Virus record (IMG/VR): IMGVR_UViG_3300017971_000515
Location: 1-37,406 of that record
Strand: one strand, 5' to 3'
From: a virus
Length of the DNA stretch: 37,406 nucleotides
The translations under genes were made by a program, and so were the position numbers. The notes beneath the pieces were generated by a model that did no database searches, had not been told where the DNA came from, and was given only the letters and a program-made list of their open reading frames with translations. Positions 6,231-37,406 of the stretch are shown here, piece by piece (the stretch's first letter is position 1; every line of letters begins with the position of its first letter).

Positions 6231-6566
6231 TTACAAATATGCTAAATAGCTGTTCCAATCGAACAACTCCTTGATTTCTTCCTTATTCATGTTTTCCAAT
6301 TTATCCTTGATTGCCATTACAGCTTCCTGCACCCATGCAACATTATCGTCCCTTATGTCGATTTTAATAGGTACGCTACCAACATTTACAATTTCGGGGT
6401 CTATTCTTATAATCTTCCTGTCATCAAAGAAACGGTAGTGCGGTATCAACCCCTTGACCATCCAGTTGTGTATTGTTTGAGGATCAACACTGATATATTC
6501 CGCAAATTGGTTTATAGTCATAAGTTTCTTCGGATAATTCGGATATATCTTGCTTTTTACTGCCAT
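6231..6566 (-). CDS. Excisionase/MerR-like HTH protein, 111 aa
   Basis: Residues about 15-55 read LMTINQFAEYISVDPQTIHNWMVKGLIPHYRFFDDRKIIRIDPE, a typical winged-helix HTH of the excisionase/HTH_17 type (x-hA-hxhS-xxTIxxWhxxGxIP). The C-terminal half is acidic and helical and may mediate oligomerisation. It starts inside the end of the preceding gene and lacks a clear SD; instead a run of ten A lies just upstream. It is the third of three HTH genes in a row ahead of the capsid-like and terL genes. A small-terminase or regulatory role is possible. Confidence 0.75.
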   Translation of the reverse strand: MAVKSKIYPNYPKKLMTINQFAEYISVDPQTIHNWMVKGLIPHYRFFDDRKIIRIDPEIVNVGSVPIKIDIRDDNVAWVQEAVMAIKDKLENMNKEEIKELFDWNSYLAYL

Positions 6567-7112: not shown

Positions 7113-7364
7113 TTATAACTTTGGATTTTTTAACGGGTTATGCTGGTATTTAGGGGTAGGTTGATCGAGATCGTATTTGGCAGGGGTGTAAAATTCCTGT
7201 AAAGAATCAGGGTCTATGCGTATTGCTCCTCTTTTCCCAATCCTAAAATGCGGTAAAGACCCATCACGTATGTATCTGCCTATCGTGGCTTCAGACAGCC
7301 CTGAATATTTTGCAAACTTCTTTATCGACAATAGTTGTTTCCCATTTTCCGGTTTATTCACCAT
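7113..7364 (-). CDS. Excisionase-family HTH protein, 83 aa
   Basis: Residues 10-55 read LLSIKKFAKYSGLSEATIGRYIRDGSLPHFRIGKRGAIRIDPDSL, a clear HTH_17/excisionase-type DNA-binding domain. The tail is Pro-rich and short. The SD is AAGGAGAATGATAAAAA before ATG. It is the first gene of the leftward operon, about 48 nt downstream of the predicted sigma70 start, and close to the divergent sigma54 promoter, so it is well placed to control both. Its HTH resembles that at 6231-6566, so the two may be paralogues. Confidence 0.8.
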   Translation of the reverse strand: MVNKPENGKQLLSIKKFAKYSGLSEATIGRYIRDGSLPHFRIGKRGAIRIDPDSLQEFYTPAKYDLDQPTPKYQHNPLKNPKL

Positions 7365-10126: not shown

Positions 10127-10379
10127 ATACGACAAGAACAAAATTTTAAAGCCCCTTAAATGTCAAGTATGCGGTAAAGTAATTGCATATAAATATACAT
10201 TTAAGGAAAATATTCTGAAAGATTTGCTTAACGAAGCAAAGATAAAAAATGAAATATTCGAAGAAGATATCGTAGTTTGCTGTCAACCTAAAAGATTAAC
10301 GTGCGTTAAGAAATTTCAGGATATGCTCCTGCCTAAAATCGAAATAGCAAACGAAGAAAGCGGAGTGTGCAAAAAATGA
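10107..10379 (+). CDS. Zinc-knuckle protein, 90 aa
   Basis: The start is taken at ATG 10107, preceded by GAAGGAGAAGGATA. Residues about 18-24 are CQVCGKV, and a second cluster CCQPKRLTC lies near 60-70, which together look like a zinc site. Basic overall. ATGA overlap with the next gene. Function unknown. Confidence 0.6.
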   Translation: MTKNKIEYDKNKILKPLKCQVCGKVIAYKYTFKENILKDLLNEAKIKNEIFEEDIVVCCQPKRLTCVKKFQDMLLPKIEIANEESGVCKK

Positions 10380-10900
10380 ACAATGTTAAAGATCGAGTTT
10401 ACGAATTGTTATGGGAACTTTTTAAGGATGAGTGTTTATATATTCAAAAATTAAAAGAATATTATGAAATCGGAGACAGGGATAAATTAAATTTAAATCA
10501 ATTCATACATGAATTTAGAATTGCCAATAATTTTATGAAATCGGCTGAAATAGCGACCATCCTTTTCGAGATATTGCCTGTGGAAATAATAATAGACAGA
10601 AGAACATACCATGATGGATTTAGAAAGGATGTAATCTTTGGAATAATCAAAGGAGAAAATAGTTTATTTGAAAAAGAAAAGGGGATAAATTTATGTAGAT
10701 CTAACATTGTCACTTGGGAGAAATTACCAGACGGGTTTCAAGAAAAAGTAGCTGCTGCATTAGAAGACCTCCATATTTTTAAGCAAATATATAAAAAAAC
10801 AATAGAATTGTTCGAACAGGAATATCTTGAAAAAAGACAAGAAGCGAGAAATGAATTAGAATCCATCGGGATTAAATTCAGGGAGGAAATGAACAAATGA
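10376..10900 (+). CDS. Unknown helical protein, 174 aa, with a relative at 35979-36392
   Basis: The start is taken at ATG 10376 (ATGA overlap; GGAG 10 nt upstream). The middle holds IATILFEILPVEIIIDRRTYHDGF, which matches PIILFEILPAEIEKGNEFYEM in the protein at 35979-36392; both start with a helix of the form VYELLWELF/VLNNLWGLF. They therefore belong to one family present in both arms. The C-terminal half is a long charged helix. The family has no known function to me. Confidence 0.65.
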   Translation: MNNVKDRVYELLWELFKDECLYIQKLKEYYEIGDRDKLNLNQFIHEFRIANNFMKSAEIATILFEILPVEIIIDRRTYHDGFRKDVIFGIIKGENSLFEKEKGINLCRSNIVTWEKLPDGFQEKVAAALEDLHIFKQIYKKTIELFEQEYLEKRQEARNELESIGIKFREEMNK

Positions 10901-12011: not shown

Positions 12012-12968
12012 ATGACTTATACCGATATTTGGACAGAAGGATTGGCGACTATTCGCAAGGCTTTGACTTCAGCAAATTCAGGGAATGCTCTATTACAGCC
12101 TGTAGTTGATGCAGTTGTACCACTGATGTGTGATTACCAAAACCCTTTGAGACAAAATATCCCCAGAAAATTGGGTAGTGGTCAAGGCTGGACAATAAAC
12201 CGGCGTACTCCGGGATCTACTCCTGCTGAATGGGAGACGGATGTAGATTTCGTAACAGAGGACACAGGCAGCTATGAACAATTCCTATTTCCATATAGAA
12301 CTCTTTTGACAAGAGGCAAGGTGACCCGGAAACTTCAACCGACAGGCGCGTCTTATATTGACGTACTTATGGAGGAGATAGAGGGAAAGATTATCGAATT
12401 CAAGAATTATGAGGATCAAACTTATATAACCGGAGTTTCTTCTGAAACTGATTTTGACGGTTTTCAAAACCTATCTTCTGAGGATCAGATGATAGCAGCA
12501 AATGGTTATTTGTCTTTGGATAAAATAGATGAGGCAATGAACAAGAATATTGGTAATCCGAACATGATGGTTATGGCTCGAAGAACAAGGCGAGAATTAA
12601 ATGCTCTTTTACAAGAGTACCAGCAATTTATCGATGTAACCGAGGTCAAAGGTGGATTCCGTTTGATGAGCTACAATGGTGTTCCGATTTACGTCAGCAC
12701 AAATGTTCCAACCACTCAACTATTTAATGGAGTAACCGAAGGCTCCAATACTGGAGGTTCTTCCAGTTCAATATATTTTATTGACACAGAGCATCTTTGG
12801 GCTGGGGAATTAACACCAGTGAGGATGTTACCTATGGCAAAAACCACCCAGCAATATGACGAGTTCGAAATCTTCTGCGATGAAGTTCTCGTTTTAAGGA
12901 ATCCAATGTGTATATCGAAACTCATCGGGATATGGGAAAGACACTTAATAACTGAAGGGGCGATATGA
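12012..12968 (+). CDS. Major-capsid-like protein, 318 aa
   Basis: The start is taken at ATG 12012. It is the longest of three homologous proteins here and the only one with what looks like a complete N-arm/E-loop region (residues 50-110). Conserved blocks are NPLR (44-47), NPNMMVMARRTRREL (182-196) and YNGVPIY (221-227), then SIYFIDTEHLWAGE, and CDEVLVLRNP near the end. The length, helix-then-beta layout and the P-domain-like NPNMMVM..RTRREL...YNGVPIYVS block fit an HK97-fold major capsid protein. It lies far from terL and on the other strand, under a different promoter class. The fold call is by resemblance only. Confidence 0.7.
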   Translation: MTYTDIWTEGLATIRKALTSANSGNALLQPVVDAVVPLMCDYQNPLRQNIPRKLGSGQGWTINRRTPGSTPAEWETDVDFVTEDTGSYEQFLFPYRTLLTRGKVTRKLQPTGASYIDVLMEEIEGKIIEFKNYEDQTYITGVSSETDFDGFQNLSSEDQMIAANGYLSLDKIDEAMNKNIGNPNMMVMARRTRRELNALLQEYQQFIDVTEVKGGFRLMSYNGVPIYVSTNVPTTQLFNGVTEGSNTGGSSSSIYFIDTEHLWAGELTPVRMLPMAKTTQQYDEFEIFCDEVLVLRNPMCISKLIGIWERHLITEGAI

Positions 12969-16213: not shown

Positions 16214-17188
16214 ATGAGCAATAAAGAAAAAAAAGATGATTTACTATCATTATATGGAAAAGAACCTAAAAATGTAATCAATGCTTTTTTAAAGGTTAAG
16301 CCAAGAAATGGAGGGATAAAAAAAGTGAGTGAACATCCAAAAAGGGAACAATTGCCTTTAGCAAAACATAAGGGGAAATTGGTGTTGGGAGACAAGGAAA
16401 TTGATTGTTATGTTTTAGATACCGAAGAAAGAGTCATAAGTTTAAGGGCAGCAGTTACATCTATAACCAAGGTAGAAGGTGGAGCCTTGGAGGATTATCT
16501 TGGGGTTAAAGCCTTAAAATCCTTTATTGACAAGGATTTAGTTCTGGAGGAAACTATAGAATTTAAGCAACCTAAGTTAGATTGGATTACAAAAGGGATT
16601 AAAGCGGAAAACTTTTTAGATATATGCAGGGCTTATGTGAACGCTTATGTAAATGAAAAGCTAACAACATCAAGACAAAAAGAAATAGCTATTCAATGTA
16701 GTATTTTATTAAGTGCTTGTGCAAAAGTAGGTTTAATTGCTCTTATTGATGAAGCAACCGGATACCAATATGAAAGGAATCAAGAAGCCCTCAGAATTAA
16801 ACTTGCCGCATATATTTCAGAAGAGCTAAGAGACTGGGAAAAAACATTTCCAGACGAATTATGGGAAGAATTTGGGAGATTAACAGGATGGAGTTCGACA
16901 AGACTGCACTCAAGACCAAAGTGGTGGGGGAAATTAGTTATGGAGGTTATTTATGATGCTCTCGATCCAGATGTTGCTCAACATTTAAGGGAAAACAAAC
17001 CGCCACCAAGACATAAAATGAATTATCACCAATGGATGACGTCAGATGTTGGATTAAAAGCATTGATACCTCATATAAACCAAATAATAGGTATCGCCAA
17101 AACTTGCGAATCGTTAAGCGAATTTAGGGAGCAAGTTGGTTATCATTTTAAAAAAGAACCATTGCAATTAAGATTACCGAGCAAATAA
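16214..17188 (+). CDS. P63C-domain protein, 324 aa
   Basis: Residues about 175-290 resemble the P63C domain known from phage and bacterial proteins: ALIDEATGYQYERNQEALRIKLAAYI, then EELRDWEKTFPDELWEEFGRLTGW and a WGKLVMEVIYDALDP block. The N-terminal third (GKLVLGDKEIDCYVLDTEERVISLRAA) looks like the KilA/antirepressor-like part often found in front of P63C. It starts on the base after the truncated methyltransferase stop, with AGGA upstream, and its stop overlaps the next start (TAATG). Known relatives act as phage regulators, but no role is established. Confidence 0.7.
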   Translation: MSNKEKKDDLLSLYGKEPKNVINAFLKVKPRNGGIKKVSEHPKREQLPLAKHKGKLVLGDKEIDCYVLDTEERVISLRAAVTSITKVEGGALEDYLGVKALKSFIDKDLVLEETIEFKQPKLDWITKGIKAENFLDICRAYVNAYVNEKLTTSRQKEIAIQCSILLSACAKVGLIALIDEATGYQYERNQEALRIKLAAYISEELRDWEKTFPDELWEEFGRLTGWSSTRLHSRPKWWGKLVMEVIYDALDPDVAQHLRENKPPPRHKMNYHQWMTSDVGLKALIPHINQIIGIAKTCESLSEFREQVGYHFKKEPLQLRLPSK

Positions 17189-18648
17189 TGGAAAACACTC
17201 TTTTTTATGGCGATAATTTAACAATATTAAGAGAACATATAGATGGTGGATCAATTGATTTGATTTATTTAGATCCGCCTTTTAATTCTAAGGCTACTTA
17301 TAACATCTTATATAAAGAGCCAAACGGTTTGGCTTCGAGTGCTCAGGTTACAGCTTTTGAAGATTCATGGCATTGGACTGAAGAAACAGCAAATTCTTTT
17401 GAAGAAATAATTGACGATAAATTGGTATCAACAGATATTAAAGACATGATGTTAGCTTTTAGAAAATTTATTGGCTTAAATGATATGATGGCATATCTCT
17501 CAATGATGTGTATTAGACTTATAGGGCTTCAAAGAGTATTAAAAAATACTGGGTCCATTTATCTCCATTGCGATCCCACCGCAAGTCACTATCTTAAAAT
17601 TGTTATGGATACAATTTTTGGGAAAAGAAATTTTAGAAATGAAATTGCATGGTGTTATACTGGTGCTTCAAGTCCGGGACAAAAACAGTTCCCAAGAAAA
17701 CATGATATTATTTTTTGGTATTCAAATAATACTGATAAATGGATTTTCAATCACGATGATATTAGAATACCTTATAGCGAGTCAACATTAAATCGTATTA
17801 AAGCAGGTGAATTAGGGGGTAAATCTGCTGAATCTGTTTTTCATGGCAAAAGAACAAAGAGAACTATGCACAAACAAGGCAAAATACCTGAAGACTGGTG
17901 GTTAATTCCAGTATTGGGTTCTACCGCCAAGGAAAGGCTTGGATATCCAACCCAAAAACCAGAAAGACTTTTGGAAAGAATAATTAAAGCGTCAACATCA
18001 GAGGGTGATATGGTATTAGACCCTTTTTGTGGATGTGGCACTACGATCATGGTTGCTCAAGGTTTAAGGAGAAAATGGATTGGAATTGATATAACACACC
18101 TTGCAACCACTTTGATAAAAAAGCGTCTTTATGATATGTGGGGTTTGGAAGCTAAAAAAGATTATGACGTTGTTGGAGAACCAACAGATTTAGCCAGTGC
18201 AAAGGAACTTGCATCACAGAACCGTTATCAGTTTGAGTGGTGGGGTCTTTCTTTAATTGGAGCACAGCCCTATAAAGGAAAAATAAAGGGATCAGACAAA
18301 GGAATAGATGGTGTAATATATTTCAAAAACGTTGGTGGGGAAATAAAAAAAGCAATGGTTCAGGTTAAGAGCGGTAATGTTGGCGTTGATAAAGTTAGGG
18401 ATTTATGCCATGTTGTAAATAGAGAAAAAGCAGTCATGGGCTTTTTCATAACTTTACATCAACCTACAAAGGACATGATAAAAGAAGCATTGGGAGAAGG
18501 GTTTTATAAACATAAGGGGAGTAGCTTTCAAAAAATACAAATATTAACTATTGAATCATTATTGTCGGGAACAATGCCTAGTGCACCTTTTTATTATTCG
18601 GGATTAAGACAATCTGGTAAACATATCCCTGATCAATTAACTATTTAA
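17188..18648 (+). CDS. DNA methyltransferase fused to an Mrr-like nuclease domain
   Basis: Residues 1-330 are a beta-class DNA methyltransferase: catalytic motif IV LIYLDPPFNS (DPPF at 29-32) precedes the SAM-binding VLDPFCGCGTT (277-286), with GYPTQKPERLL just before it. Residues about 345-450 look like a PD-(D/E)xK restriction endonuclease of the Mrr type: GSDKGIDGVIYF (D374), then AMVQVKSG (Q392, K394), the QxK variant, and a beta strand AVMGFFITL. The whole could be a single-chain modification-restriction enzyme. It is coupled to the P63C gene. The target is unknown. Confidence 0.8.
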   Translation: MENTLFYGDNLTILREHIDGGSIDLIYLDPPFNSKATYNILYKEPNGLASSAQVTAFEDSWHWTEETANSFEEIIDDKLVSTDIKDMMLAFRKFIGLNDMMAYLSMMCIRLIGLQRVLKNTGSIYLHCDPTASHYLKIVMDTIFGKRNFRNEIAWCYTGASSPGQKQFPRKHDIIFWYSNNTDKWIFNHDDIRIPYSESTLNRIKAGELGGKSAESVFHGKRTKRTMHKQGKIPEDWWLIPVLGSTAKERLGYPTQKPERLLERIIKASTSEGDMVLDPFCGCGTTIMVAQGLRRKWIGIDITHLATTLIKKRLYDMWGLEAKKDYDVVGEPTDLASAKELASQNRYQFEWWGLSLIGAQPYKGKIKGSDKGIDGVIYFKNVGGEIKKAMVQVKSGNVGVDKVRDLCHVVNREKAVMGFFITLHQPTKDMIKEALGEGFYKHKGSSFQKIQILTIESLLSGTMPSAPFYYSGLRQSGKHIPDQLTI

Positions 18649-28608: not shown

Positions 28609-29573
28609 AATTAGAAGAAATTGGATTTTATACATTAACGGATCATAGGGCACGTATTGCAAATATATACTCCAATCTTCATAGGTGTGAATTGATTCTA
28701 ACGGACAGATGTAATTTTAACTGCACTTATTGCAGAGGAATAGACGAAAAATATTCTTTTACTCCATTAGAAAAAGCCTGCGAAATAGTAAATATGTGGT
28801 CTGAAGATGGGCTAAAAAACATTAGATTTTCAGGGGGGGAACCAACCTTATATGATGGGATCAGCAATTTAATTGCATTGTCTAAAAGCAATGGGATAGA
28901 AAGAATAGCATTGTCAACAAATGGTAGTGCTGATTTTCAATTATATGAATGGCTAATTAGGTTAGGGTTAAACGATATCTCTATATCATTGGATAGCTGT
29001 TGTTCATTAACTTTTAATAAAATGTGTGGGATTGGTGAATCAAATATGTTTGAGAAAGTTTTTGACAACATAAAAAAATTATCTAAATTAACATATGTCA
29101 CTATTGGGATGGTTATAAATGAGAATAATCTCGATTCATTAAATTTATTAATTGGTAGAATGTCCGAAACAAATGTATCGGATATAAGAATCGTCCCTTC
29201 GGCTCAATATTCATCTAAGTTAAACATTATTAAGAGAATAATTCCCAAGTACGTAAAATATCCAATCTTAAAATATAGGATAGAGAATTATTTATCACAA
29301 AGAAATATTAGGGGTATATATAAAGATGACTACAATAAATGCCCTTTAGTGCTGGATGACATGGCTGTCGCAAATGGTTTTCATTTCCCATGTATTATTT
29401 ATTTTAGAGAAGGTGGAAATCCAATAGGGTATTATTACGACAGAGTAAAATCACGCAAAGAAAGATATGATTGGTATAAAAGTCATAATACATCGGAAGA
29501 CTTTATTTGTAAAAACAACTGTTTGGATGTTTGTGTTGACTATAACAATAAATGGAGATGCTTCCAATCTTAA
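28605..29573 (+). CDS. Radical SAM enzyme, 322 aa
   Basis: The 4Fe-4S/SAM motif is CNFNCTYC (C36, C40, C43), followed by FSGGEPTLY (GGEP 77-80) and a TNG strand, typical of the radical SAM barrel in the MoaA/SPASM group. The C-terminal part has further Cys (NKCPLVLDD...FPCIIYF...ICKNNCLDVC) that may hold an auxiliary cluster. Coupled to the ParB-like gene. The substrate is unknown; a modified nucleotide or peptide is possible. Its stop overlaps the convergent FmdB-type gene by 4 nt. Confidence 0.88.
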   Translation: MKLEEIGFYTLTDHRARIANIYSNLHRCELILTDRCNFNCTYCRGIDEKYSFTPLEKACEIVNMWSEDGLKNIRFSGGEPTLYDGISNLIALSKSNGIERIALSTNGSADFQLYEWLIRLGLNDISISLDSCCSLTFNKMCGIGESNMFEKVFDNIKKLSKLTYVTIGMVINENNLDSLNLLIGRMSETNVSDIRIVPSAQYSSKLNIIKRIIPKYVKYPILKYRIENYLSQRNIRGIYKDDYNKCPLVLDDMAVANGFHFPCIIYFREGGNPIGYYYDRVKSRKERYDWYKSHNTSEDFICKNNCLDVCVDYNNKWRCFQS

Positions 29574-29893
29574 ATCCCTGTCCATTTTTTGTTTTTCCTT
29601 TTCTTCCACTTGCCCTTCGCTTTACTGGCTTCTTTTTTGTCCATTGGTCTGCACCCTCTCTGGACTTTAGACGGGTCCTTCTTATACCAAACTTCTTCCG
29701 CATCGTCTATGTCCATACAGTGCCCATCCCTCGACCAACCCAAACCCCTTAGCTCAAAACCAGACTCTCCTATTTTCCTGTCCATCTTTGAACCACACGA
29801 AGGGCATATTTCTTCTCTCTCTATTTCTTTTATACTTTTTATTATTTCTATTTTATAGTTACATTCTGGACAAATATATGGATAAATTGCCAT
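29570..29893 (-). CDS. FmdB-family zinc-ribbon protein, 107 aa
   Basis: MAIYPYICPECNYKIEIIKSIKEIE...CPSCGSKMDRKIGESGFELRGLGW follows the FmdB/CxxC_CxxC_SSSS ribbon closely (CPEC and CPSC, then the GFxLxGxGW tail). The C-terminal 50 residues are Lys-rich (KAKGKWKKRKNKKW) and could bind nucleic acid. It is driven by its own sigma70 promoter (29944-29972), with SD AAGGAGACGATAAATAAA. Confidence 0.8.
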   Translation of the reverse strand: MAIYPYICPECNYKIEIIKSIKEIEREEICPSCGSKMDRKIGESGFELRGLGWSRDGHCMDIDDAEEVWYKKDPSKVQRGCRPMDKKEASKAKGKWKKRKNKKWTGI

Positions 29894-29943
29894 TTTATTT
29901 ATCGTCTCCTTATGGTTTAAATATCTTGATCATACCTATATTT

Positions 29944-29972
29944 AATATATTAATTTTAAAAGGATTTGTCAA
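29944..29972 (-). promoter_or_regulatory. Sigma70 promoter for the FmdB-type gene
   Basis: Minus strand: TTGACA (29972-29967), 17 nt, TATATT (29949-29944). The start would be near 29937, a 44-nt leader. A second GACAAAT lies directly upstream, forming a tandem repeat with the -35. Confidence 0.75.
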
Positions 29973-29978
29973 ATTTGT

Positions 29979-30488
29979 CTAGGATCTATTTTCGATAAAC
30001 ACATTCCCCAATTTTTCCAATACCGTTTTATTGCTATAGATTGTCGGCTCCCCGAAATTTGATATATACTTACCCCTTGATTTTACCACCCAATCTATAA
30101 TTTGTTGCGGAACTGGATGTTCATACTCAGATGTTAAGTATCGTAGCCAAAAGCACCCATAGTCGTAAAACACTTCAGCCTTGTATGTCCATTTATCTTC
30201 AATATCTCCAAACGGAGGTGAATAGGGGATGCCGACAATATCACCACTATAAATCAATTCGTCATTATATCTATCCTTCAATCCCGAAGAATATAAAAAT
30301 ACTATTGCTTCAAATCCTACAATAGTATCTTTTGCAGAATATATCCAGTCCTCACTATCTGGGAATAAATGTAAGTCTTTAGAATCCGGATTTAAGTCAA
30401 TAATTTCATCATTAAAATCTATATTAGATACATTACAAATTATTTTATATTGTTTATGGAACACTTTAATATCTTTTATTTTAAACAT
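29979..30488 (-). CDS. YopX-like phage protein, 169 aa
   Basis: VFLYSSGLKDRYNDELIYSGDIVGIPY matches the YopX-domain signature (xTGLKDKNGxEIYEGDIV), then a beta-rich YKAEVFYDYGCFWLRYL and a closing GEPTIYSNKTVLEKLGNVFIEN resembling the family's IGNIYENPELL. YopX proteins are common in phages of low-GC hosts; their role is not known. SD GAGAAGGGCGAA. Confidence 0.75.
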   Translation of the reverse strand: MFKIKDIKVFHKQYKIICNVSNIDFNDEIIDLNPDSKDLHLFPDSEDWIYSAKDTIVGFEAIVFLYSSGLKDRYNDELIYSGDIVGIPYSPPFGDIEDKWTYKAEVFYDYGCFWLRYLTSEYEHPVPQQIIDWVVKSRGKYISNFGEPTIYSNKTVLEKLGNVFIENRS

Positions 30489-30506
30489 TTCGCCCTTCTC
30501 TTGACT

Positions 30507-30863
30507 TTAAGTTATAATTGATTCGTGTATTTCAGGTTCTTCTTTTATATCTACGTCCTTGACCTTCCAATCATGCCTGCTTTGGAGTATCGCAATTACA
30601 GCTTTATCGGTTATCTGAAAATCACACTTAGGGCAATATGCTACTTGGGGTCTGTATAGAATATCCTTCTGCATTCTTTGACCACAAAACATGCATATCA
30701 AATTTATCCTAACAATATTACCAGTACTTTCCGATTCATATTGAGGTTTGGTTTTCTTTATTAGCTTTTTTAATTGTTCTCCTGCAATAGCTTCCTGTTT
30801 AGCCAATGCCCTTATTTCTTCCACTTCATCGTGGGTATACATTCTTTCTTTAATGTCGTTCAT
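30507..30863 (-). CDS. Zinc-ribbon protein, 118 aa
   Basis: The N-terminal half is a charged helix (MYTHDEVEEIRALAKQEAIAGEQLKKLIKK), then CMFCGQRM and CPKCDFQI knuckles about 22 residues apart make a zinc ribbon, followed by an acidic tail. SD AAAAAGGAGAAACA. Role unknown. Confidence 0.7.
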   Translation of the reverse strand: MNDIKERMYTHDEVEEIRALAKQEAIAGEQLKKLIKKTKPQYESESTGNIVRINLICMFCGQRMQKDILYRPQVAYCPKCDFQITDKAVIAILQSRHDWKVKDVDIKEEPEIHESIIT

Positions 30864-30887
30864 TGTTTCTCCTTTTTGGTTTAAAAT

Positions 30888-31697
30888 TTAGGGCACAGCG
30901 TCCTTTTTCCGGAAGGTTGTAATAATTAACTCAACCGCCTTGTTTGCTAACGCTATAAAGTCTATACCATCAGTATCATAAGCAGCATCACAAGTAACAT
31001 AAATAGCACGAGCAGCAGCAGCATAAGCAGCATAAGCAGCACGAGCAGCAGCAGCATCAGCAGCAGCAGCATAAGCAGCATCATCAGCATCAGCAGCAGC
31101 ATACGCAACATAAGCAGCATCAGCAGCAGCATAAGCAGCATCAGCAGCATAAGCAGCATAAGCAGCAGCATAAGCAGCATAAGCAGCATCAGCAGCAGCA
31201 GCATCAGCAGCATCATCAGCATAAGCAGCATAAGCAGCAACTAAAGCTTCAGAAACTTCCCCTTTTAGATAATCCTTCGCTAATCGGATCGCCTTGTTTG
31301 GTCTATCATCTTTTGGATACTTGTTGTTGTACAAATGAACAACAGACTCTGCACACAGTATTGCAAACTGTACGCAGACTCTATTTCTTATATTATTATC
31401 CCTGTACCAATCTGGTATCGGGATTTCTTTTGTTAGTTTTAATTCATATGTCCCTACTTTGTTATAATCTTCTACAACAATATCTCCTTCTGCTTCAAAA
31501 ATATTTGGATTCTTAATACCTGCATGTATTGGATTTAGCAACAACGCTAAATTTATGTCTTTGTAAGCATGGAAAACTCCATCTGAGCATAGCACAGGTC
31601 TACGCTTTTCTTTCTCAATATAGTAATTCTTGTTTAACACCCACTTGAAATTGCCGTGAGTTATATTGTCTTTATTTGTCAGTTTGTAAAGTTTCAT
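30888..31697 (-). CDS. Phage protein with alanine-rich repeat region, 269 aa
   Basis: The start is taken at ATG 31697 (SD AAAGGGG; ATGA overlap with the gene before). The N-terminus, MKLYKLTNKDNITHGNFKWVLN...PVLCSDGVFHAYKDINLALLLNPIHAGI...EAEGDIVVEDY, is a head domain I recognise from many phage proteins with variable Ala-rich tails. Residues about 150-245 are built from Ala, Tyr and Asp only (AAYAAYAADAA-type units) and should form a long helix. The C-terminus returns to normal sequence (FIALANKAVELIITTFRK). Function unknown. Confidence 0.7.
   Translation of the reverse strand: MKLYKLTNKDNITHGNFKWVLNKNYYIEKEKRRPVLCSDGVFHAYKDINLALLLNPIHAGIKNPNIFEAEGDIVVEDYNKVGTYELKLTKEIPIPDWYRDNNIRNRVCVQFAILCAESVVHLYNNKYPKDDRPNKAIRLAKDYLKGEVSEALVAAYAAYADDAADAAAADAAYAAYAAAYAAYAADAAYAAADAAYVAYAAADADDAAYAAAADAAAARAAYAAYAAAARAIYVTCDAAYDTDGIDFIALANKAVELIITTFRKKDAVP
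30978..31243 (-). repeat. GCA/GCT-type low-complexity repeat
   Basis: The plus strand is an imperfect run of AGCAGCATA/AGCAGCATC units, encoding the Ala-Tyr-Asp tract on the other strand. Units vary only by whole codons, which suggests growth by replication slippage. Confidence 0.75.
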
Positions 31698-31846
31698 TTT
31701 TCCAGCCCCTTTCTTATTAGCCAAAACTCATAGCTATTCTTGTCGATAATCTTTTGCCTTGAAGCTATCTCCGTTGCCACGTGAACAGACAAGGCAACTA
31801 TTACAAGGATTACTAATAGCAAGCCGAATGTTAGTAAGTGGCTCAT
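31694..31846 (-). CDS. Small single-pass membrane protein, 50 aa
   Basis: MSHLLTFGLLLVILVIVALSV is a clear transmembrane segment, followed by a basic tail. It overlaps both neighbours by ATGA (radical SAM stop before, alanine-rich gene after); its SD is GGGAGATGGTAAA. Confidence 0.6.
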   Translation of the reverse strand: MSHLLTFGLLLVILVIVALSVHVATEIASRQKIIDKNSYEFWLIRKGLEK

Positions 31847-32580
31847 TTTACCATCTCCCTTTTTAAATCCTCTTTTATGTAATATTTCTTGCCATACTTT
31901 TCGAGTAATTCAACAGCTTCGTTCCCAAACCGCTTCCAGTCGATTTTCTTTGCTTCAGGGGAGTAATGCCACATGCCGACCTTGTATTCGTCAACGAAAG
32001 TGTGTGTATGTCTTATGAGCTCTAGGGATTCGCTTGGTCTTATAACGGGCTCAAGGCTTACCCATGTATAAATCCCCCATTCATGGCAATGCTTCAAAGC
32101 CAACCACCTATCGTAATTTGAAGCAGCCCTAGGCTCCATCTGAAATTTTACATCCCCACAAGTAAAATACGTCAATGTTGCGCCGTATTTAATCCAATCT
32201 TTTTCATCAATATACTCATCTAAAAAATTAGGATAATTAGATTTAGTAAGAAACCTTACCGATATTGAATTGTTTAAAAATATATTAAGTGCCTGTTCTG
32301 TTATTTTATCAAATTCCTTAATCCCCTGAAACGGATCTGTCGAAAAGCTCATAAATACTTCTTTGCCTTTGTATTTAGGGGCTTCTTTTTTTAGTTGCTC
32401 AATCATGTTCGGCTTTATAATAGGTTTGTCGAACTCATTGCCGTATTTGCTTTTAAAGAAGCGGTTGTGGATTGCACGATTGTAACAATAAATACAATCA
32501 TATCGACACCCGATAAACGGGTTAAAAGCATATTCGCCGTATTCCGCCGCCCTTCCTTTGGGTTTGTATATTAAGCTCAA
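31843..32580 (-). CDS. SplB-like radical SAM protein, 245 aa
   Basis: NPFIGCRYDCIYCYNR carries the CxxxCxxC cluster (C25, C29, C32) in the context typical of the spore-photoproduct-lyase/COG1533 group (GC..DC.YCY). Other family marks are VFMSFSTDPFQ, RFLTKSNY and TWVSLEPVIRPSESLE. It is slightly shorter than bacterial SplB. SPL itself repairs spore photoproduct; phage relatives have unknown substrates, so DNA repair is only a suggestion. SD AAAGGAGGAATACG. Confidence 0.85.
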   Translation of the reverse strand: MSLIYKPKGRAAEYGEYAFNPFIGCRYDCIYCYNRAIHNRFFKSKYGNEFDKPIIKPNMIEQLKKEAPKYKGKEVFMSFSTDPFQGIKEFDKITEQALNIFLNNSISVRFLTKSNYPNFLDEYIDEKDWIKYGATLTYFTCGDVKFQMEPRAASNYDRWLALKHCHEWGIYTWVSLEPVIRPSESLELIRHTHTFVDEYKVGMWHYSPEAKKIDWKRFGNEAVELLEKYGKKYYIKEDLKREMVK

Positions 32581-32595
32581 CGTATTCCTCCTTTA

Positions 32596-32760
32596 TTAAG
32601 GGTTTGAGTTGACATACCCATCTTCCCTAAATGGTGCATACTTAGGAAACAACGGATAAAGATGTTCGTTAATAAAATTTTGATTAAATCTGCACTGGCG
32701 ATAAGTGCAGTTGTTGAAAAATTTACATTCTGTAAAAGGACATGGTTTGTCTTGATTCAT
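32596..32760 (-). CDS. Small Cys-rich protein, 54 aa
   Basis: ATG at 32760 with the repeated leader GAAAGCGAGGAAAGCCC. MNQDKPCPFTECKFFNNCTYRQCRFNQNF has four Cys in 16 residues (C-x4-C-x5-C-x4-C), a likely metal site. The leader and first five codons nearly duplicate those of the mini-gene at 34515-34580. Confidence 0.6.
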   Translation of the reverse strand: MNQDKPCPFTECKFFNNCTYRQCRFNQNFINEHLYPLFPKYAPFREDGYVNSNP

Positions 32761-32939
32761 GGGCTTTCCTCGCTTTCTTTGTGCACCGCAAGGTATTTCT
32801 GCTTAACTTCTTCATATTTGTTTATATCACGTAAGGCGGACTCCATGCCTTCAGCACAACCAGCTATTTCACAGTCATCATACCAATCGTTTATTCTATT
32901 TAGTTCACTCTCTAACCATTCCAAAAACTTATCTTTCAT
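32757..32939 (-). CDS. Small acidic helical protein, 60 aa
   Basis: MKDKFLEWLESELNRINDWYDDCEIAGC...: helical and acidic. Its last codons (HKESEESP) are formed by the next gene's SD element. ATGA overlaps at both ends. Confidence 0.6.
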   Translation of the reverse strand: MKDKFLEWLESELNRINDWYDDCEIAGCAEGMESALRDINKYEEVKQKYLAVHKESEESP

Positions 32940-33199
32940 TCCTCATCCTCACTTTCATTATATTCTTCGTGAAATATACACCCAAAACCTCCATCAAATC
33001 TTAAAATTTGATATTCTTTTGAGTCTTTAATAATAGACCGGATAGCTTCATTTGAAAGCCCATAGCTTGTTTTAAAAAATAGTTCCATCACAGATAAAGA
33101 GACAAGATCGCATACCTTGTCATTGTCACACTTTCCGATAGATCCTCTATTTGTATCAGCCTTCACTCTAAAATATTTACAGGTATTACAGTGTTTCAT
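32936..33199 (-). CDS. Cys-rich protein, 87 aa, probable zinc binder
   Basis: MKHCNTCKYFRV...GSIGKCDNDKVCDLVSL has CxxC and a second Cys pair, like many small phage-encoded metal-binding proteins, then GFGCIFHEEY. SD GCGAGGGAAACG. The acidic end ESEDEE overlaps the next gene's SD. Confidence 0.6.
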   Translation of the reverse strand: MKHCNTCKYFRVKADTNRGSIGKCDNDKVCDLVSLSVMELFFKTSYGLSNEAIRSIIKDSKEYQILRFDGGFGCIFHEEYNESEDEE

Positions 33200-33362
33200 C
33201 GTTTCCCTCGCTTTTGTATTTCTCGCACCTGTTACAGTGCCAAATCATATCCTCAATATTAGTTGCCATTATATATTCCGGCGATAAGATACACTTGTAG
33301 TGAATATTTGCATAGTCGGACACACAGTACATATATTTGCAGGTTAAAGCCTTAATTGCCAT
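33186..33362 (-). CDS. Cys-rich protein, 58 aa
   Basis: The start is taken at ATG 33362 (SD GCGAGGTTGAGG), which avoids a long overlap with the gene before. CKYMYC, C in HYKC and HCNRCEKY provide a zinc-like set. Unknown function. Confidence 0.55.
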   Translation of the reverse strand: MAIKALTCKYMYCVSDYANIHYKCILSPEYIMATNIEDMIWHCNRCEKYKSEGNDETL

Positions 33363-33789
33363 CCTCAACCTCGCTTTCCAATATTTCCTTAACAATATAC
33401 CCATGACAAGGTTCTATGCCATCCAGTTCTTCAACGCACCAGCAGACGAGGTAAATGTCTTTATGTTTTATGAGCAAAGACTTAATACGTAACAATTCCT
33501 CTCTAATCAAATCATTTATATGAATATCAATGCTCATAGTTTCTTTATATAAAACTAAACAATGGTCAATGGAGTCATAAGCCTCGCCAGGTTTATATGG
33601 ATTAGCCAATGGACTTGCTTCCAGTCCATATCTCGGCATAGCCCTGCCGATGTAGATGTATTCAGGGTGCTTTCGTTGGTCATCAGGCAACTTTAAATCA
33701 TTCTGGATTTCATCTGGTAATAATTTAAAACTTGTTACGTGGATCACTCTCTCGCTTTCTTTGTGTGTTTCAAGGTGTATATGTTTCAT
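33352..33789 (-). CDS. DUF4326-like protein, 145 aa
   Basis: EYIYIGRAMPRYGLEASPLANPYKPG, then a helix and IYLVCWCVEELDGIEPCHGYIV match the DUF4326 plan (hhGR...SPLANPF...L.CwC....CHG). The family is common in phages and its biochemical role is unclear; the Cys/His tail suggests metal. The start at 33789 has a very strong SD (GGGGGGAATGAA). A GTG at 33747 also follows a GAAAGCGAGAGA element. Confidence 0.7.
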   Translation of the reverse strand: MKHIHLETHKESERVIHVTSFKLLPDEIQNDLKLPDDQRKHPEYIYIGRAMPRYGLEASPLANPYKPGEAYDSIDHCLVLYKETMSIDIHINDLIREELLRIKSLLIKHKDIYLVCWCVEELDGIEPCHGYIVKEILESEVEDGN

Positions 33790-33790
33790 T

Positions 33791-33877
33791 TCATTCCCCC
33801 CTTATCATCCTGCCGACAAAGCATCCGAACAGAAAGCTGAATATTAAGTAACTGATTGCTATTAGTAAGATTTTCAT
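33791..33877 (-). CDS. Tiny membrane protein, 28 aa (paralogue of 35050-35142)
   Basis: MKILLIAISYLIFSFLFGCF plus a short basic tail. The copy at 35050-35142 begins MKILIILICWLPVSFVFSCI and ends in the same GE. Both start after repeated leaders. Single-span micropeptides, possibly lysis or envelope related, but unproven. Confidence 0.5.
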   Translation of the reverse strand: MKILLIAISYLIFSFLFGCFVGRMIRGE

Positions 33878-33890
33878 GCTTCACCGTCCT

Positions 33891-34154
33891 TCATTCGTTC
33901 ATTTCCTTAAGGATTTGTTCTAAATCACTAATATTTAATTTATCATGGGAATAATGATATAAAAGATCTCGATATTGCTTTATTGCCAATCTCAATATTT
34001 TTTTCGATTCACAATAAAAAAAATGTTTTCCAATATAAACATCTGCATATATGCCATTATGTTTTTCCCCATTTTTAAGTTGTATTACAAGCTCTTTGCA
34101 AGCATCTATTATTTCACTAAATTCTTTTATTCCTTTATCTACCTGATATACCAT
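33891..34154 (-). CDS. Unknown helical protein, 87 aa
   Basis: Start at ATG 34154, overlapping the preceding stop (TGATG), with AAAGAAAGGTGTGAG upstream. Helical throughout, ending KEMNE, followed at once by the repeated leader AAGGACGGTGAAGC of the next gene. No family. Confidence 0.55.
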   Translation of the reverse strand: MVYQVDKGIKEFSEIIDACKELVIQLKNGEKHNGIYADVYIGKHFFYCESKKILRLAIKQYRDLLYHYSHDKLNISDLEQILKEMNE

Positions 34155-34432
34155 CACTCACACCTTTCTTTGTTCATTTCCTTTACAATCTGATAGGCTT
34201 CAAGATACTTGTAAAATGATGGAGGATTCTCCATATTCTTTATTAAATTTTTATTTTGCTCTGAATTTATAACCAATTCAATCGAATCAAAATCTAACGT
34301 CCTTGCATCAATAACTATCGTATTAAGATACCTATTGTGCAGCCATTCTAATGCCTTCTTGAAAGATGGAAATCTCAAAGAAGAAACTTCAGGTTTTAAT
34401 AACACCCAATCAGATACGATTTTATAGCTCAC
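34154..34432 (-). CDS. Unknown protein, 92 aa, GTG start
   Basis: GTG at 34432 with AAAGGGGTGAGTGA upstream. Mixed alpha/beta (MSYKIVSDWVLLKPEVSSLRFPSFKKALEWL). Its end KEMNKERCE parallels the KEMNE end of the next gene, so the two may share ancestry at the C-terminus. Confidence 0.5.
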   Translation of the reverse strand: MSYKIVSDWVLLKPEVSSLRFPSFKKALEWLHNRYLNTIVIDARTLDFDSIELVINSEQNKNLIKNMENPPSFYKYLEAYQIVKEMNKERCE

Positions 34433-34518
34433 TCACTCACCCCTTTCTTTGGGAGGGTAGGGAGCCGATATACAGCAAATCCTTCCCATTTGATACATTC
34501 CCCTCCGTCCTTTCTCAT
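34429..34518 (-). CDS. Mini-gene, 29 aa (related to 36379-36474)
   Basis: ATG at 34518. Its end, FAVYRLPTLPKKGVSE, resembles PFLYSPSSLQRKGCVRE in the mini-gene at 36379-36474. Both sit in similar leader sequence (CTCCCTCC...AAAGAAAGG). They may be remnants of a duplicated unit rather than functional genes. Confidence 0.4.
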   Translation of the reverse strand: MRKDGGECIKWEGFAVYRLPTLPKKGVSE

Positions 34519-34580
34519 GTAAGTAAATTCTTTTTTGGGTGTTGCTTTTCGAATTGTTGTTTAAGTTTATCTTGGTTCAT
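34515..34580 (-). CDS. Mini-gene, 21 aa
   Basis: ATG at 34580 after the leader GAAAGCGAGGAAAGTCC. MNQDKLKQQFEKQHPKKNLL plus T. The leader and the MNQDK start nearly repeat those at 32760. Kept because of that duplication and the ATGA overlap with the next mini-gene. Confidence 0.4.
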   Translation of the reverse strand: MNQDKLKQQFEKQHPKKNLLT

Positions 34581-34611
34581 GGACTTTCCTCGCTTTCTTA
34601 ATTTAATTTCT

Positions 34612-34899
34612 TTATGGTTCGTCACACCAGCAGGCATATTCTCCAATATAATGAACTATATGAGATGTTTCATCTTCTTCGACATCACAATGGCTCAGCT
34701 TAACATTTCTAATTTTCAAATTTATATCCGCCTTCATATCGTCTGTATATCCCATTTCCTGCATTATATAGTCCCTTGCGATATCCTCATTGTGTATGCA
34801 AAGAATTGGCACATAAGAATAACCATCAAGATTAGAAAAGAATGGTTTTAATTTTATAACACCACATTCTTTGCAATAAAATCTAAACTCTGGGTTCAT
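34612..34899 (-). CDS. Zinc-knuckle protein, 95 aa
   Basis: The N-terminus FYCKECGVIKLKPF has one CxxC, and the C-terminus ACWCDEP has another, with a helical acidic middle. SD GCGAGAGAACGA. Overlaps the preceding gene by 17 nt. Unknown function. Confidence 0.6.
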   Translation of the reverse strand: MNPEFRFYCKECGVIKLKPFFSNLDGYSYVPILCIHNEDIARDYIMQEMGYTDDMKADINLKIRNVKLSHCDVEEDETSHIVHYIGEYACWCDEP

Positions 34900-35050
34900 T
34901 CGTTCTCTCGCTTTCTATGGCTTCTATGTCGAGCAAAATTCTATCTAACCCAATCAATATCGCATTATTTATTCGTGATGTCGGGTGCGAATTTACTCGC
35001 AACATCAATTCTTGAATTTCTTGTACGAAAGACTTTTCTTTACTTTGCAT
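34883..35050 (-). CDS. Small helical protein, 55 aa
   Basis: ATG at 35050; SD GGAGAATA in the preceding gene's end. MQSKEKSFVQEIQELMLRVN...ILIGLDRILLDIEAIESERTNEPRV: two helices. Its end contains the GAAAGCGAG element that serves as SD for the next gene. Confidence 0.5.
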   Translation of the reverse strand: MQSKEKSFVQEIQELMLRVNSHPTSRINNAILIGLDRILLDIEAIESERTNEPRV

Positions 35051-35142
35051 TATTCTCCTGCCCCTTTCATAAAAGTTCCTGCAATACAGCTAAATACAAA
35101 GCTGACAGGCAGCCAGCAGATTAAGATAATTAAGATTTTCAT
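35050..35142 (-). CDS. Tiny membrane protein, 30 aa (paralogue of 33791-33877)
   Basis: MKILIILICWLPVSFVFSCI then AGTFMKGAGE: one hydrophobic span and a short polar tail. ATGA overlap with the gene before. Confidence 0.5.
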   Translation of the reverse strand: MKILIILICWLPVSFVFSCIAGTFMKGAGE

Positions 35143-35489
35143 GGTTTCCCATTCTCTTTCATTGATTCAAGTTTTTCCCAATAAGAGTCACTACTCATCT
35201 CATTGGTTATATAATCAAACCCCTTACACTCCCAAAGCATTGTTCTCAATTCTCCGGGAGGGTATGACCCACAGCAATATTCGTCTCCAATAGCTTTGCA
35301 GATTTTACATACTTTCCAATTACTCCATTCCCCATCGTATAAACATGAATAATAGTAATAAGTCTCCCTTTTTTTAATGACTTCACCGCACTCGTAACAT
35401 TTATGCTCTTTGAGCGCTTTCCTTTCCTTGCAATCATATATAGCCGCATAATTACCATCGTCATAGTCACACGAACAACAGTTATTCAT
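35139..35489 (-). CDS. Cys-rich zinc-binding protein, 116 aa
   Basis: CCSCDYDD, CYECGEVI, CKICKAIGDEYCCG and CKGF give about ten Cys arranged as several knuckles: probably two zinc sites. The EHKCYECGEVIKKRETYYYYSCLYDGEW stretch looks like a treble clef known from small phage proteins. SD AAAGGACGGTGAACC. Confidence 0.65.
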   Translation of the reverse strand: MNNCCSCDYDDGNYAAIYDCKERKALKEHKCYECGEVIKKRETYYYYSCLYDGEWSNWKVCKICKAIGDEYCCGSYPPGELRTMLWECKGFDYITNEMSSDSYWEKLESMKENGKP

Positions 35490-35524
35490 GGTTCACCGTC
35501 CTTTCTGGTAGGTGCCCGGAGTCC

Positions 35525-35776
35525 CTATATTGTTTTTGCTATATTAGGTAAATATTTTTTTAAGTATTCTTCTTTTTTATCTAAGAAATCGTCTACAGTT
35601 AAGCCGTCAATGTCAACAACAATATTATACTCATCCGGCAAGTTTTCTAAATCATTAAAAGCTATATTAGGATCTACTTTCCATACTTGTATAAAATTAC
35701 CTAATATCCTATCCATTCCTATTGCCATAGCATACCCGGATTTTTTATCATATATTTCATTTCTCATTTTTACCAT
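35525..35776 (-). CDS. Unknown protein, 83 aa
   Basis: MVKMRNEIYDKKSGYAMAIGMDRILGNFIQVWKVDP...: beta-rich start, acidic helical end. It begins inside the preceding gene (20-nt overlap); the SD is GAGAGGA. ATGs at 35776 and 35767 are both possible. No family. Confidence 0.55.
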   Translation of the reverse strand: MVKMRNEIYDKKSGYAMAIGMDRILGNFIQVWKVDPNIAFNDLENLPDEYNIVVDIDGLTVDDFLDKKEEYLKKYLPNIAKTI

Positions 35777-35933
35777 TCCTCTCTTTTCTTATTGGGCTTT
35801 CAATCTCAATACCTTCCCTTTTTAAAATATCTTTTAAAACGCTATTGCTTTTTTCCAATCTATCTGTTTTATTTTTTGTATCATCAACAGGTCTATTCCC
35901 TAATAATCCTTTATGCCTATAATCAATATCCAT
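35757..35933 (-). CDS. Small basic protein, 58 aa
   Basis: ATG at 35933 with AGGAATGATACCAGT upstream (SD rather far). MDIDYRHKGLLGNRPVDDTKNKTDRLEKSN...: basic and helical. The frame fills a 200-nt gap and overlaps the next gene. Confidence 0.5.
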   Translation of the reverse strand: MDIDYRHKGLLGNRPVDDTKNKTDRLEKSNSVLKDILKREGIEIESPIRKERNGKNEK

Positions 35934-35978
35934 ACTGGTATCATTCCTATGAAAAAAGTATATATGCTAAAGTTTCCA

Positions 35979-36392
35979 TCATTCCCCCCACACGAACTTG
36001 ACATTATCGCCTTCTTTGGCTACAAGCTCTTTGATTGCGAATAATAAAGAATGTAGGGCTTGCCAGATACCATTATTTTCTCCACCCGTAACTAATAATT
36101 CATCAACTTCCGATTGGTAATATATTGTAATGTCATTGTATTTATTTCTTATAAGATACATTTCATAAAATTCATTTCCTTTTTCAATCTCTGCTGGCAA
36201 TATCTCGAAAAGGATGATAGGATATACATCATTCTGTAAAGCCATTTGACAATGAAAATCTGTAATTGTGGTTAATAGACATCCATGCTTTTCCCTTGTC
36301 TCGATAAAATTCCTTATGTATGGGCTATCCTGAAATAAACCCCACAAATTATTTAATACTTCCTGGTAAACTTCCTCTTTAGCCTCGTTCAT
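35979..36392 (-). CDS. Unknown protein, 137 aa, relative of 10376-10900
   Basis: NLWGLFQDSPYIRNFIE at the start and PIILFEILPAEIEKGNEFYEMYLIR in the middle match the protein at 10376-10900, which has a different C-terminus. Both arms of the phage carry this family. SD GAAAGGACGGTGATCG; ATG at 36392. Function unknown. Confidence 0.6.
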   Translation of the reverse strand: MNEAKEEVYQEVLNNLWGLFQDSPYIRNFIETREKHGCLLTTITDFHCQMALQNDVYPIILFEILPAEIEKGNEFYEMYLIRNKYNDITIYYQSEVDELLVTGGENNGIWQALHSLLFAIKELVAKEGDNVKFVWGE

Positions 36393-36474
36393 CGATCACC
36401 GTCCTTTCTCGCACGCATCCCTTTCTTTGGAGGGAGGAGGGCGAATACAGGAAAGGAGGTTTGTCGTTAGTCAT
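36379..36474 (-). CDS. Mini-gene, 31 aa (related to 34429-34518)
   Basis: The start is taken at ATG 36474, with the strong SD GGAGGGCGAA. MTNDKPPFLYSPSSLQRKGC and a short basic end. Overlaps genes on both sides. It may be a remnant of the duplicated leader unit described for 34429. Confidence 0.4.
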   Translation of the reverse strand: MTNDKPPFLYSPSSLQRKGCVRERTVIDERG

Positions 36475-36751
36475 TTCGCCCTCCATTTGGTTTAATTGTG
36501 TTAGGTGTGTCAGCTCGCACCTTTGAGCTGTATTGATAACGACATGACCAGTACATGTCGTCAAGTATATATTTCGTATTCTTTAATATATTTATAGCCC
36601 GGTCCACTTCTGCTTCCTTTTTTTTATTTATCTGTCTCTGTGATTCAATCTCTTTGTTAAGTTTCGCAATATAAGCAAAGTGAAAGACAAAGAACAGCAG
36701 GAATGAAAGAAAGATTGCTGTAAATATTATGTAGGTATGAATTTGATTCAT
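36467..36751 (-). CDS. Membrane-anchored coiled-coil protein, 94 aa
   Basis: TM segment at residues 6-28 (TYIIFTAIFLSFLLFFVFHFAYI), then a coiled coil (LNKEIESQRQINKKKEAEVDRAINIL). The architecture resembles Rz-type spanins or small holin-like proteins, but no lysis genes are nearby, so this is only a thought. SD AATAGGAGGGTAGT. Confidence 0.6.
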   Translation of the reverse strand: MNQIHTYIIFTAIFLSFLLFFVFHFAYIAKLNKEIESQRQINKKKEAEVDRAINILKNTKYILDDMYWSCRYQYSSKVRADTPNTIKPNGGRND

Positions 36752-36837
36752 ACTACCCTCCTATTATTGCAGGCGGTATAAAGTTCAATTTCAACCGGAA
36801 GGACGTAATCAAACTTATACTGTATAAGGTTATTCAT
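36748..36837 (-). CDS. Small protein, 29 aa
   Basis: ATG at 36837 with AAGGGCACGGCA upstream; the stop overlaps the next start (ATGA) and its last codons carry that gene's SD AGGAGGG. MNNLIQYKFDYVLPVEIELY...: unknown. Coupling on both sides supports it. Confidence 0.45.
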   Translation of the reverse strand: MNNLIQYKFDYVLPVEIELYTACNNRRVV

Positions 36838-36847
36838 TGCCGTGCCC

Positions 36848-37406
36848 TTATATCTTTATTTCTAACTCTTTGGCAATAGCCTGCCAGAGTTCGTAAATGT
36901 TTTTTTTTGGCTTGCCCGGTCTCCATAAATTTCTGGACTCTTCAAATCGAAAAAGCCTATTGATTCCACCACCTGAAAAAGGACAACTTCCACCATCAGC
37001 CCATTTTTTCATTTTTTCTTTTCCACATACCAGCGCATCCCACCGCATAAGCTCTAAAGTTAATTCTTCTGATAAATTGACCATATTTGTTTGCAATATC
37101 ATCAATAAATCTATATTAGCAGAGCTAAGGTCAGCTCCATGCAGGTCAGCAGAGCGAAGGTTAGCAGAGCTAAGGTCAGCAGAGCGAAGGTTAGCAGAGC
37201 TAAGGTCAGCTCCACGCAGGTCAGCTCCACGCAGGTCAGCTTCATACAGGTCAGCTTCACGCAGGTCAGCTACACGCAGGTCAGCTTCATGCAGGTCAGC
37301 AGATCGAAGGTCAGCAGAGCGAAAGTTAGCAGAGCTAAGGTCAGCAGAGCGAAGGTTAGCAGAGCTAAGGTCAGCTCCACGCAGGTCAGCTCCACGCAGG
37401 TCAGCT
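36848..37406 (-). CDS. Pentapeptide-repeat protein, 5' end cut by the window edge
   Basis: From the right edge the frame is open and reads ADLRG/ADLSS/ANLRS/ADLHE units, 20 pentapeptides in a row (A[DN]LXX), which form a right-handed quadrilateral beta helix. After ANIDL comes a unique C-terminal domain (LLMILQTNMVNLSEELTLELMRWDALVCGKEKMKKW...) of about 85 residues with a Gly-rich GGSCPFSGGG loop. Some pentapeptide proteins mimic DNA and inhibit gyrase; whether this one does is unknown. The start lies outside the window. Confidence 0.85.
   Translation of the reverse strand, partial: ADLRGADLRGADLSSANLRSADLSSANFRSADLRSADLHEADLRVADLREADLYEADLRGADLRGADLSSANLRSADLSSANLRSADLHGADLSSANIDLLMILQTNMVNLSEELTLELMRWDALVCGKEKMKKWADGGSCPFSGGGINRLFRFEESRNLWRPGKPKKNIYELWQAIAKELEIKI
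37114..37406 (-). repeat. 15-bp DNA repeats encoding the pentapeptides
   Basis: Plus-strand units such as AGGTCAGCTCCACGC, AGGTCAGCAGAGCGA and AGGTTAGCAGAGCTA alternate. Several units are identical at DNA level, so recent duplication or gene conversion is likely. Confidence 0.8.

Follow-up and report, generated by a model that had tools for sequence, protein, structure and literature searches.

Repeated leader elements before the translation starts of a small-gene chain in the right arm of a tailed-phage genome

Lambdoid phages carry 'linkers' at gene boundaries, and recombination linkers of this kind would let related genomes trade genes or modules exactly between linker copies. The lambdoid nin genes have been described as interlinked (Kroger and Hobom 1982, as quoted in the available part of PMC8022706), and conserved gene-boundary sequences have been proposed to target recombination (PMC3974807, accessible portion). 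Start Associated Sequences (SAS) and their extended form (ESAS) are repeats of Cluster K mycobacteriophages; according to the available part of the source (PMC3203893), the SAS consensus is GGGATAGGAGCCC, 13 bp long and present in 11–19 copies per genome. About half of the SAS sites have an extension of 17-bp imperfect inverted repeats, and the repeats recur in related genomes beside members of shared gene families. A SAS-like motif, GGGAAAGGACCCC, is reported in ten copies from Cluster EF Microbacterium phages, where it is linked to ESAS (PMC7302621, accessible portion). Here we describe two repeated elements, A (GAAAGCGAG) and B (GAAAGGACGGTGA), which stand before translation starts in the right arm of a genome fragment from an uncultured tailed phage, kept as virus record IMGVR_UViG_3300017971_000515 (37,406 nucleotides, all of it analysed and hereafter called the window). 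The likeness of the leaders probably, though far from securely, goes back to leader DNA that recombination copied from one gene to its neighbour during the turnover of small genes, in most cases leaving the adjoining coding sequence behind.

Five exact copies of element A were found, all on the minus strand between 32.7 and 34.9 kb, where 0.14 would be expected and none of 100 shuffles reached five. With two further copies carrying one mismatch, the right arm holds seven, which are given here with one of the ORFs that follow them:

32769–32777, minus strand: exact element A before the start at 32760, within the 35-nt copy 32745–32779
32948–32956, minus strand: element A with one mismatch, GAAAGTGAG, before the start at 32939
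33207–33215, minus strand: element A with one mismatch, AAAAGCGAG, before the start at 33199
33370–33378, minus strand: exact element A before the start at 33362
33751–33759, minus strand: exact element A, 14 codons inside the open reading frame (ORF) at 33352–33789, in surroundings that match those of 32769–32777
34589–34597, minus strand: exact element A within the 35-nt copy 34565–34599, before the start at 34580
34907–34915, minus strand: exact element A before the start at 34899
34515–34580, minus strand: ORF of 21 residues, opened by the second 35-nt copy

Element A, at up to one mismatch, precedes 6 of the 19 right-arm starts and none of the 139 other starts of the phage. At one mismatch there are 15 matches in the whole window (4.6 expected), and none of the eight outside the right arm lies in a called leader. 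A preliminary description of this DNA had reported repeated elements before the right-arm starts, which is borne out with small corrections: most copies of A are exact or degenerate as listed there, but the copy before 33199 has one mismatch and that at 33751–33759 had been missed. Directly downstream of the latter the sequence reads GTG (33747), possibly a start used as an alternative or in the past. The near-identity of the leaders and first codons at 32760 and 34580, also pointed out there, extends over 32 of 35 nt (34565–34599 and 32745–32779, both on the minus strand; blastn E 1.8e-7), and all three differences are C/T.

As the 11-mer AAGGACGGTGA, element B was present in 3 of the 19 right-arm leaders and again in 0 of the 139 others. 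When GAAAGGACGGTGA was allowed up to two mismatches, five matches were found in the window against 0.5 expected. One of them (488–500, two mismatches) is intragenic in the left arm and does not precede a start; the other four, two of them exact, are in the right arm, where two exact copies had been listed correctly, a third has two mismatches and the fourth had been overlooked. They are given here with further leaders of the same arm:

35493–35505, minus strand: exact element B before the start at 35489
36396–36408, minus strand: exact element B before the start at 36392
33881–33893, minus strand: element B with two mismatches, TGAAGGACGGTGA, before the start at 33877
34502–34514, minus strand: element B variant with two mismatches, GAAAGGACGGAGG, before a 21-residue ORF with its start at 34498
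36407–36454, minus strand: longer leader upstream of the start at 36392
34429–34479, minus strand: longer leader upstream of the GTG start at 34432
34150–34173, minus strand: third copy of the CAAAGAAAGG-GTGAGTG leader, start at 34154, with a leader-comparison score of 16 against 34432

The two longer leaders match over about 50 nt with a local score of 26, the best of 300 shuffles being 21. A different local type, CAATTACAGGAG, has three copies in a 0.9-kb stretch of the middle arm (19.2–20.1 kb; window 19174, 19659 and 20039, plus strand).

A second contig of 53.7 kb (G001), which holds no exact copy of either pattern, was treated as a further part of this phage and included in the analysis. 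A sister contig (G003) is 99.99–100% identical to window 1–22079, to which its cover of the window is limited, and extends 2,220 bases past window base 1; the far end of this extension overlaps G001 exactly over 123 bases. The window ends and G001 begins with the same 15-bp tandem repeat, and the contig break cuts a gene (window 36848–37406 plus L021:1–419) for what we take to be a pentapeptide-repeat protein, encoded by the shared repeat, with its C-terminus in the window and its N-terminus on G001. Because of the overlap at one end and the split gene at the other, the window and G001 most likely make up one phage genome of about 93 kb. A stretch of 108 bp in G001 (L022:14608–14715), within a large gene (L022 13267–18444), is missing from the otherwise near-identical contig G002.

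Gene starts were called by a simple in-house scheme, not by a published caller, which gave 154 starts over the window and G001. In an all-against-all comparison of right-arm leaders (20 starts, one of them, 33877, placed 2 nt off), 11 of 190 pairs scored at least 12, where a position-specific model derived from these leaders predicts 3.2; 0.2% of 500 simulations reached 11. Nine-mers common to at least three of 19 leaders numbered 10 in the right arm; elsewhere, 121 runs of 19 consecutive leaders were examined and none had more than 5, whereas the largest number of right-arm leaders holding one nine-mer, four, was equalled or exceeded in 14% of those runs. The right-arm leaders are thus more alike than the other Shine-Dalgarno (SD) leaders of the genome, a comparison that the preliminary description had itself proposed.

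The likeness is moreover a matter of neighbourhood. Among same-strand leaders within 2.5 kb of each other, over the window and G001, 21 of 654 pairs scored at least 12 against 6.5 by permutation, a count reached in none of 2000 permutations; for far pairs the figure was 51 of 5982. The effect persisted without the right arm (17 against 6.2 expected, p 0.0005) and in the window alone (14 against 4.7, p 0.001). When a 30-nt window was slid along the genes, the excess was confined to about −45 to 0, in the windows −30 to 0 and −45 to −15 (8 against 2.0 in the latter), and the remaining windows, −120 to −30 and 0 to +180, showed none at this score; bases 0 to +30 gave 5 pairs where 3.8 were expected and later windows 0 or 1. 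The excess of near pairs stops at the start codon. Twelve comparison phages were submitted to the same test, some in part (G004, G006, G007, G008 and G011 over 40 to 80 kb, SPbeta 40001–90000, T4 1–40000, TM4 1–49999). Eight of them (G004–G011) belong to the 14 contigs in which pattern scans for the elements gave a match, and each was therefore chosen for one A- or B-like leader; six of the 14 were left unused. The effect appeared in one of the twelve (G007, 28 against 12.5), and the other 11 fell short of p 0.05 on the count. TM4, run as a positive control, was not significant (6 against 3.4, p 0.12), and the test therefore detects local copying and not genome-wide start repeats. G007 is an 82-kb phage contig (L035–L038) whose relationship to this phage is not shown.

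Where a leader overlaps the preceding gene, its DNA encodes the last codons of that gene, which explains the acidic ESE tails. Those noted previously (ESEES, SEGNDE and ESEVED) are indeed present in the translations of the following genes:

32757–32939, minus strand: gene of 60 residues with the tail HKESEESP from element A, its stop codon overlapping the next ATG
32936–33199, minus strand: gene of 87 residues with the tail NESEDEE from element A
33186–33362, minus strand: gene of 58 residues with the tail KSEGNDETL from element A
33352–33789, minus strand: DUF4326 gene of 145 residues with the tail LESEVEDGN from element A
34883–35050, minus strand: gene of 55 residues with the tail IESERTNEPRV from element A

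In called genes, four of the five ESE tripeptides that coincide with the element are spelled GAAAGCGAG and the fifth is one base off, although the probability of this spelling given ESE is 0.026 from the codon use of the phage. A cause at the protein level alone was rejected, the codon choice being too uniform. The clearest single case of leader copying at the DNA level is found on G001, where the leaders of the starts at 47563 and 46994 share 35 of 38 nt (−34 to +4). The two copies are read in two frames, as ILTKTEI* in the gene before 47563 and as FNKNEDAGE* in the gene before 46994; these upstream genes are unrelated, and the genes behind both leaders begin differently. Since the shared leader is read in two frames, it was the DNA and not the protein that was copied.

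Both elements consist of the anti-SD complement with one extra C, placed differently in each. The anti-SD tail used for the pairing calculations was assumed and may not be that of the host; with it, predicted pairing energies are −12.2 kcal/mol for A and −17.6 kcal/mol for B, and the extra C costs 3.8 kcal/mol of predicted rRNA pairing in either. Such pairing would suit plain convergence on strong SD sites in a purine-rich genome, without common origin, as would the occurrence of B before starts in 12 viral contigs, once each in a pattern scan. This explanation was already disfavoured and is improbable: the rest of the phage uses short AGGAG-type SD sites and lacks A and B in its leaders, the likeness extends past the SD sequence (35 and 38 nt), and models that keep the position-specific SD content fail to reproduce it. 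Because the extra C weakens predicted pairing, selection for strong binding alone does not account for A and B.

The preliminary description had seen in the right arm the copying of a small gene together with its start signal. Copying of the start signal is upheld, but copying of a gene applies to one tiny pair only. The genes concerned, beside those listed above, are:

32596–32760, minus strand: small gene of 54 residues behind element A, without a Pfam or PHROG match
34612–34899, minus strand: gene of 95 residues behind element A
35139–35489, minus strand: gene of 116 residues behind element B
35979–36392, minus strand: gene of 137 residues behind element B, weak relative of 10376–10900
33791–33877, minus strand: tiny hydrophobic ORF of 28 residues, paralogue of 35050–35142
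35050–35142, minus strand: tiny hydrophobic ORF of 30 residues, paralogue of 33791–33877

The right arm holds a chain of small, often overlapping minus-strand genes. When its proteins were compared with one another and with the rest of the window (1530 pairs scored, the top 60 tested against shuffles), no significant similarity was found among genes behind A or B leaders, and paralogy of the A-led or B-led proteins was rejected. The tiny ORFs formed the sole convincing pair (E about 3e-4); they have no element A or full element B in common. That whole small genes were duplicated in tandem with their leaders, their coding parts having since diverged past recognition, would agree with this pair, each member of which precedes a gene with element A in its tail, and also with the weak pair 35979–36392 and 10376–10900 (blastp 0.006; E about 0.5 in the shuffled pairwise test). 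It is nevertheless the least probable of the explanations considered, as leaders that are 91–92% identical beside unlike coding regions would require the leaders to be conserved far better than the proteins, and the excess of near pairs ends at the ATG. The copied unit thus appears to be mostly the leader and not the gene, with one tiny pair clearly duplicated. Given the A-tailed gene that follows each of the tiny paralogues, a whole segment may have been doubled there, with later replacement of the gene in its middle. Inside the weak relatives, 21 bases are identical between window 36196–36216 (minus strand) and about 10558–10578 (plus strand), which looks like a short exchanged patch.

Of the known kinds, SAS is the nearest to these leaders. 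Like SAS as portrayed in the available text, A and B are short asymmetric repeats at the ribosome-binding-site (RBS) position before many small non-structural genes in one orientation, are common to unrelated genes and sometimes include the upstream stop codon. Six of the seven right-arm copies of A lie before starts, all on the minus strand, as do the four right-arm copies of B, and both elements have an SD core with a conserved unpaired base, the extra C being unpaired against the assumed anti-SD. They would nevertheless not be classed as SAS, since consensus, copy number and inverted repeats disagree: GAAAGCGAG and GAAAGGACGGTGA lack the GGG...CCC ends of SAS, seven copies of A (≤1 mismatch) and four of B stand against 11–19, and no inverted-repeat extension was found in 29500–37406 with an exact seed of 9, a scan that poor arms could escape. 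Here, too, several leader types occur in different arms, their copies clustered locally and some reaching into upstream coding DNA. The leaders may well act at translation starts as has been proposed for SAS. The Cluster EF motif is likewise a repeat at the RBS position, and its AAAGGAC core resembles element B AAAGGACGG (PMC7302621, accessible portion); it differs as one motif in ten copies with ESAS in Microbacterium phages, and the comparison made here is of core resemblance alone. The nin region, as far as the source describes it, shares the packing of small genes with stop/start overlap (ATGA), seen here at 32757–32760 and 32936–32939, whereas lambda has no excess of near leaders in the neighbour test (0 against 0.2 expected). 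With the boundary sequences of the accessible part of PMC3974807 the leaders have in common that a short stretch of DNA is shared by gene junctions, where modules could be exchanged, but the present copies belong to a single genome and contain the ribosome-binding site. Further papers on boundary or start repeats, in their accessible parts, offered background only, and a literature search whose coverage left out most subscription literature returned no paper describing a phage genome with several kinds of locally copied leader.

The main rival explanation is a start-associated regulatory element kept by selection: A and B would be recognised by a protein or RNA of the phage or its host, through which the small genes are co-regulated, a possibility also weighed for SAS. 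The conserved base without rRNA pairing, the single orientation and the confinement to one arm speak for it, and like arguments have been made for SAS (PMC3203893, available part). We regard it as unlikely. That A and B differ while lying in the same arm, and that other arms have further leader types, such as the triplicate CAATTACAGGAG, makes a single factor improbable. No local inverted repeats were found: in the above scan, for pairs of at least 16 nt, the closest of the 22 inverted pairs has 540 nt between its arms. A hairpin or attenuator was rejected as well, four leaders folding no better than mononucleotide shuffles (z −0.63 to 0.63).

According to the explanation we prefer, A and B would be extended ribosome-binding leaders of a small-gene chain, and leader DNA from roughly −35 to +5, sometimes to +15, would be copied between neighbouring genes. 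Recombination would make the copies; genes for a RecE/Cas4-like exonuclease and for a Holliday-junction resolvase are present on G001 and could serve here. Small genes would be gained, lost or swapped between copies and so come to be bracketed by direct leader repeats. What the sequence shows is the repeats, their position at starts, the effect of neighbourhood, its end at the start codon and the leader copy read in two frames; ribosome binding and recombination as the cause are inferred. So is gene turnover, as no relative covering the right arm was found. A more tentative possibility, on the doubtful side, is that leaders spread singly between neighbours, each replacing the end of the upstream gene with a new tail in any frame, so that bracketed genes can be swapped and each arm has its own leader lineages.

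Several observations weigh against leader copying between neighbours. B-like sequences can arise independently, since the examined stretches of the 12 contigs in which B precedes starts show no likeness to window proteins except for one weak match in one locus. Wherever a copy of A overlaps an upstream gene, the frame is the same (GAA AGC GAG, ESE), which fits selection on the tails too; for these copies, a tail copied along with its leader is indistinguishable from a tail kept by selection. In G001 alone the excess of near pairs is not significant (6 against 3.2, p 0.107). A score of 11 and the mean score also give a small near excess outside the leaders (7 against 2.5 in −90 to −60, for instance), and regional composition is taken to contribute a little. 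Finally, no relative with a gene present or absent between two elements was found. Searches with the radical-SAM protein, TerL, the capsid-like proteins, the clamp and the protein of 35139–35489 yielded contigs of the same phage and a single other return, a remote capsid match (L028, 22% identity); contigs of further genomes with a related right arm were not obtained, and DNA 32500–36900 gave a single 36-nt match (E 0.009) in a phage collection.

Some features of the genome outside the leaders are worth recording. The major head protein (PHROG 212) has four homologues in what appears to be a single phage genome (window 12012–12968, plus strand; 5462–6214 and 4611–5465, minus strand; L023:9288–10241, minus strand), two of them 68% identical and two diverged and adjacent. 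At 17188–18648 (plus strand) a DNA methylase domain is joined to an Mrr-type restriction domain. The gene at 30888–31697 (minus strand; PHROG 38757, function unknown) encodes a long Ala/Tyr-rich repeat (AAYAAYA) that is tandem in the DNA. Nearby HTH-type paralogues are found at 6231–6566, with HTH_17, and 7113–7364 (minus strand; blastp 7e-10). A tRNA-Val (gac) at 1899–1972 (minus strand) sits inside the called ORF 1592–2032, which is doubtful for this reason.

The matter bears on how phages gain small accessory genes while their overlapping operons stay intact. A leader with its own ribosome site that overwrites the end of the upstream gene would let incoming genes be expressed at once, and would account for like tails on unrelated proteins. 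The neighbour-leader test is cheap and applicable to any phage genome. If leaders do spread singly between neighbours, the leader type of each arm would record its history of gene insertion.

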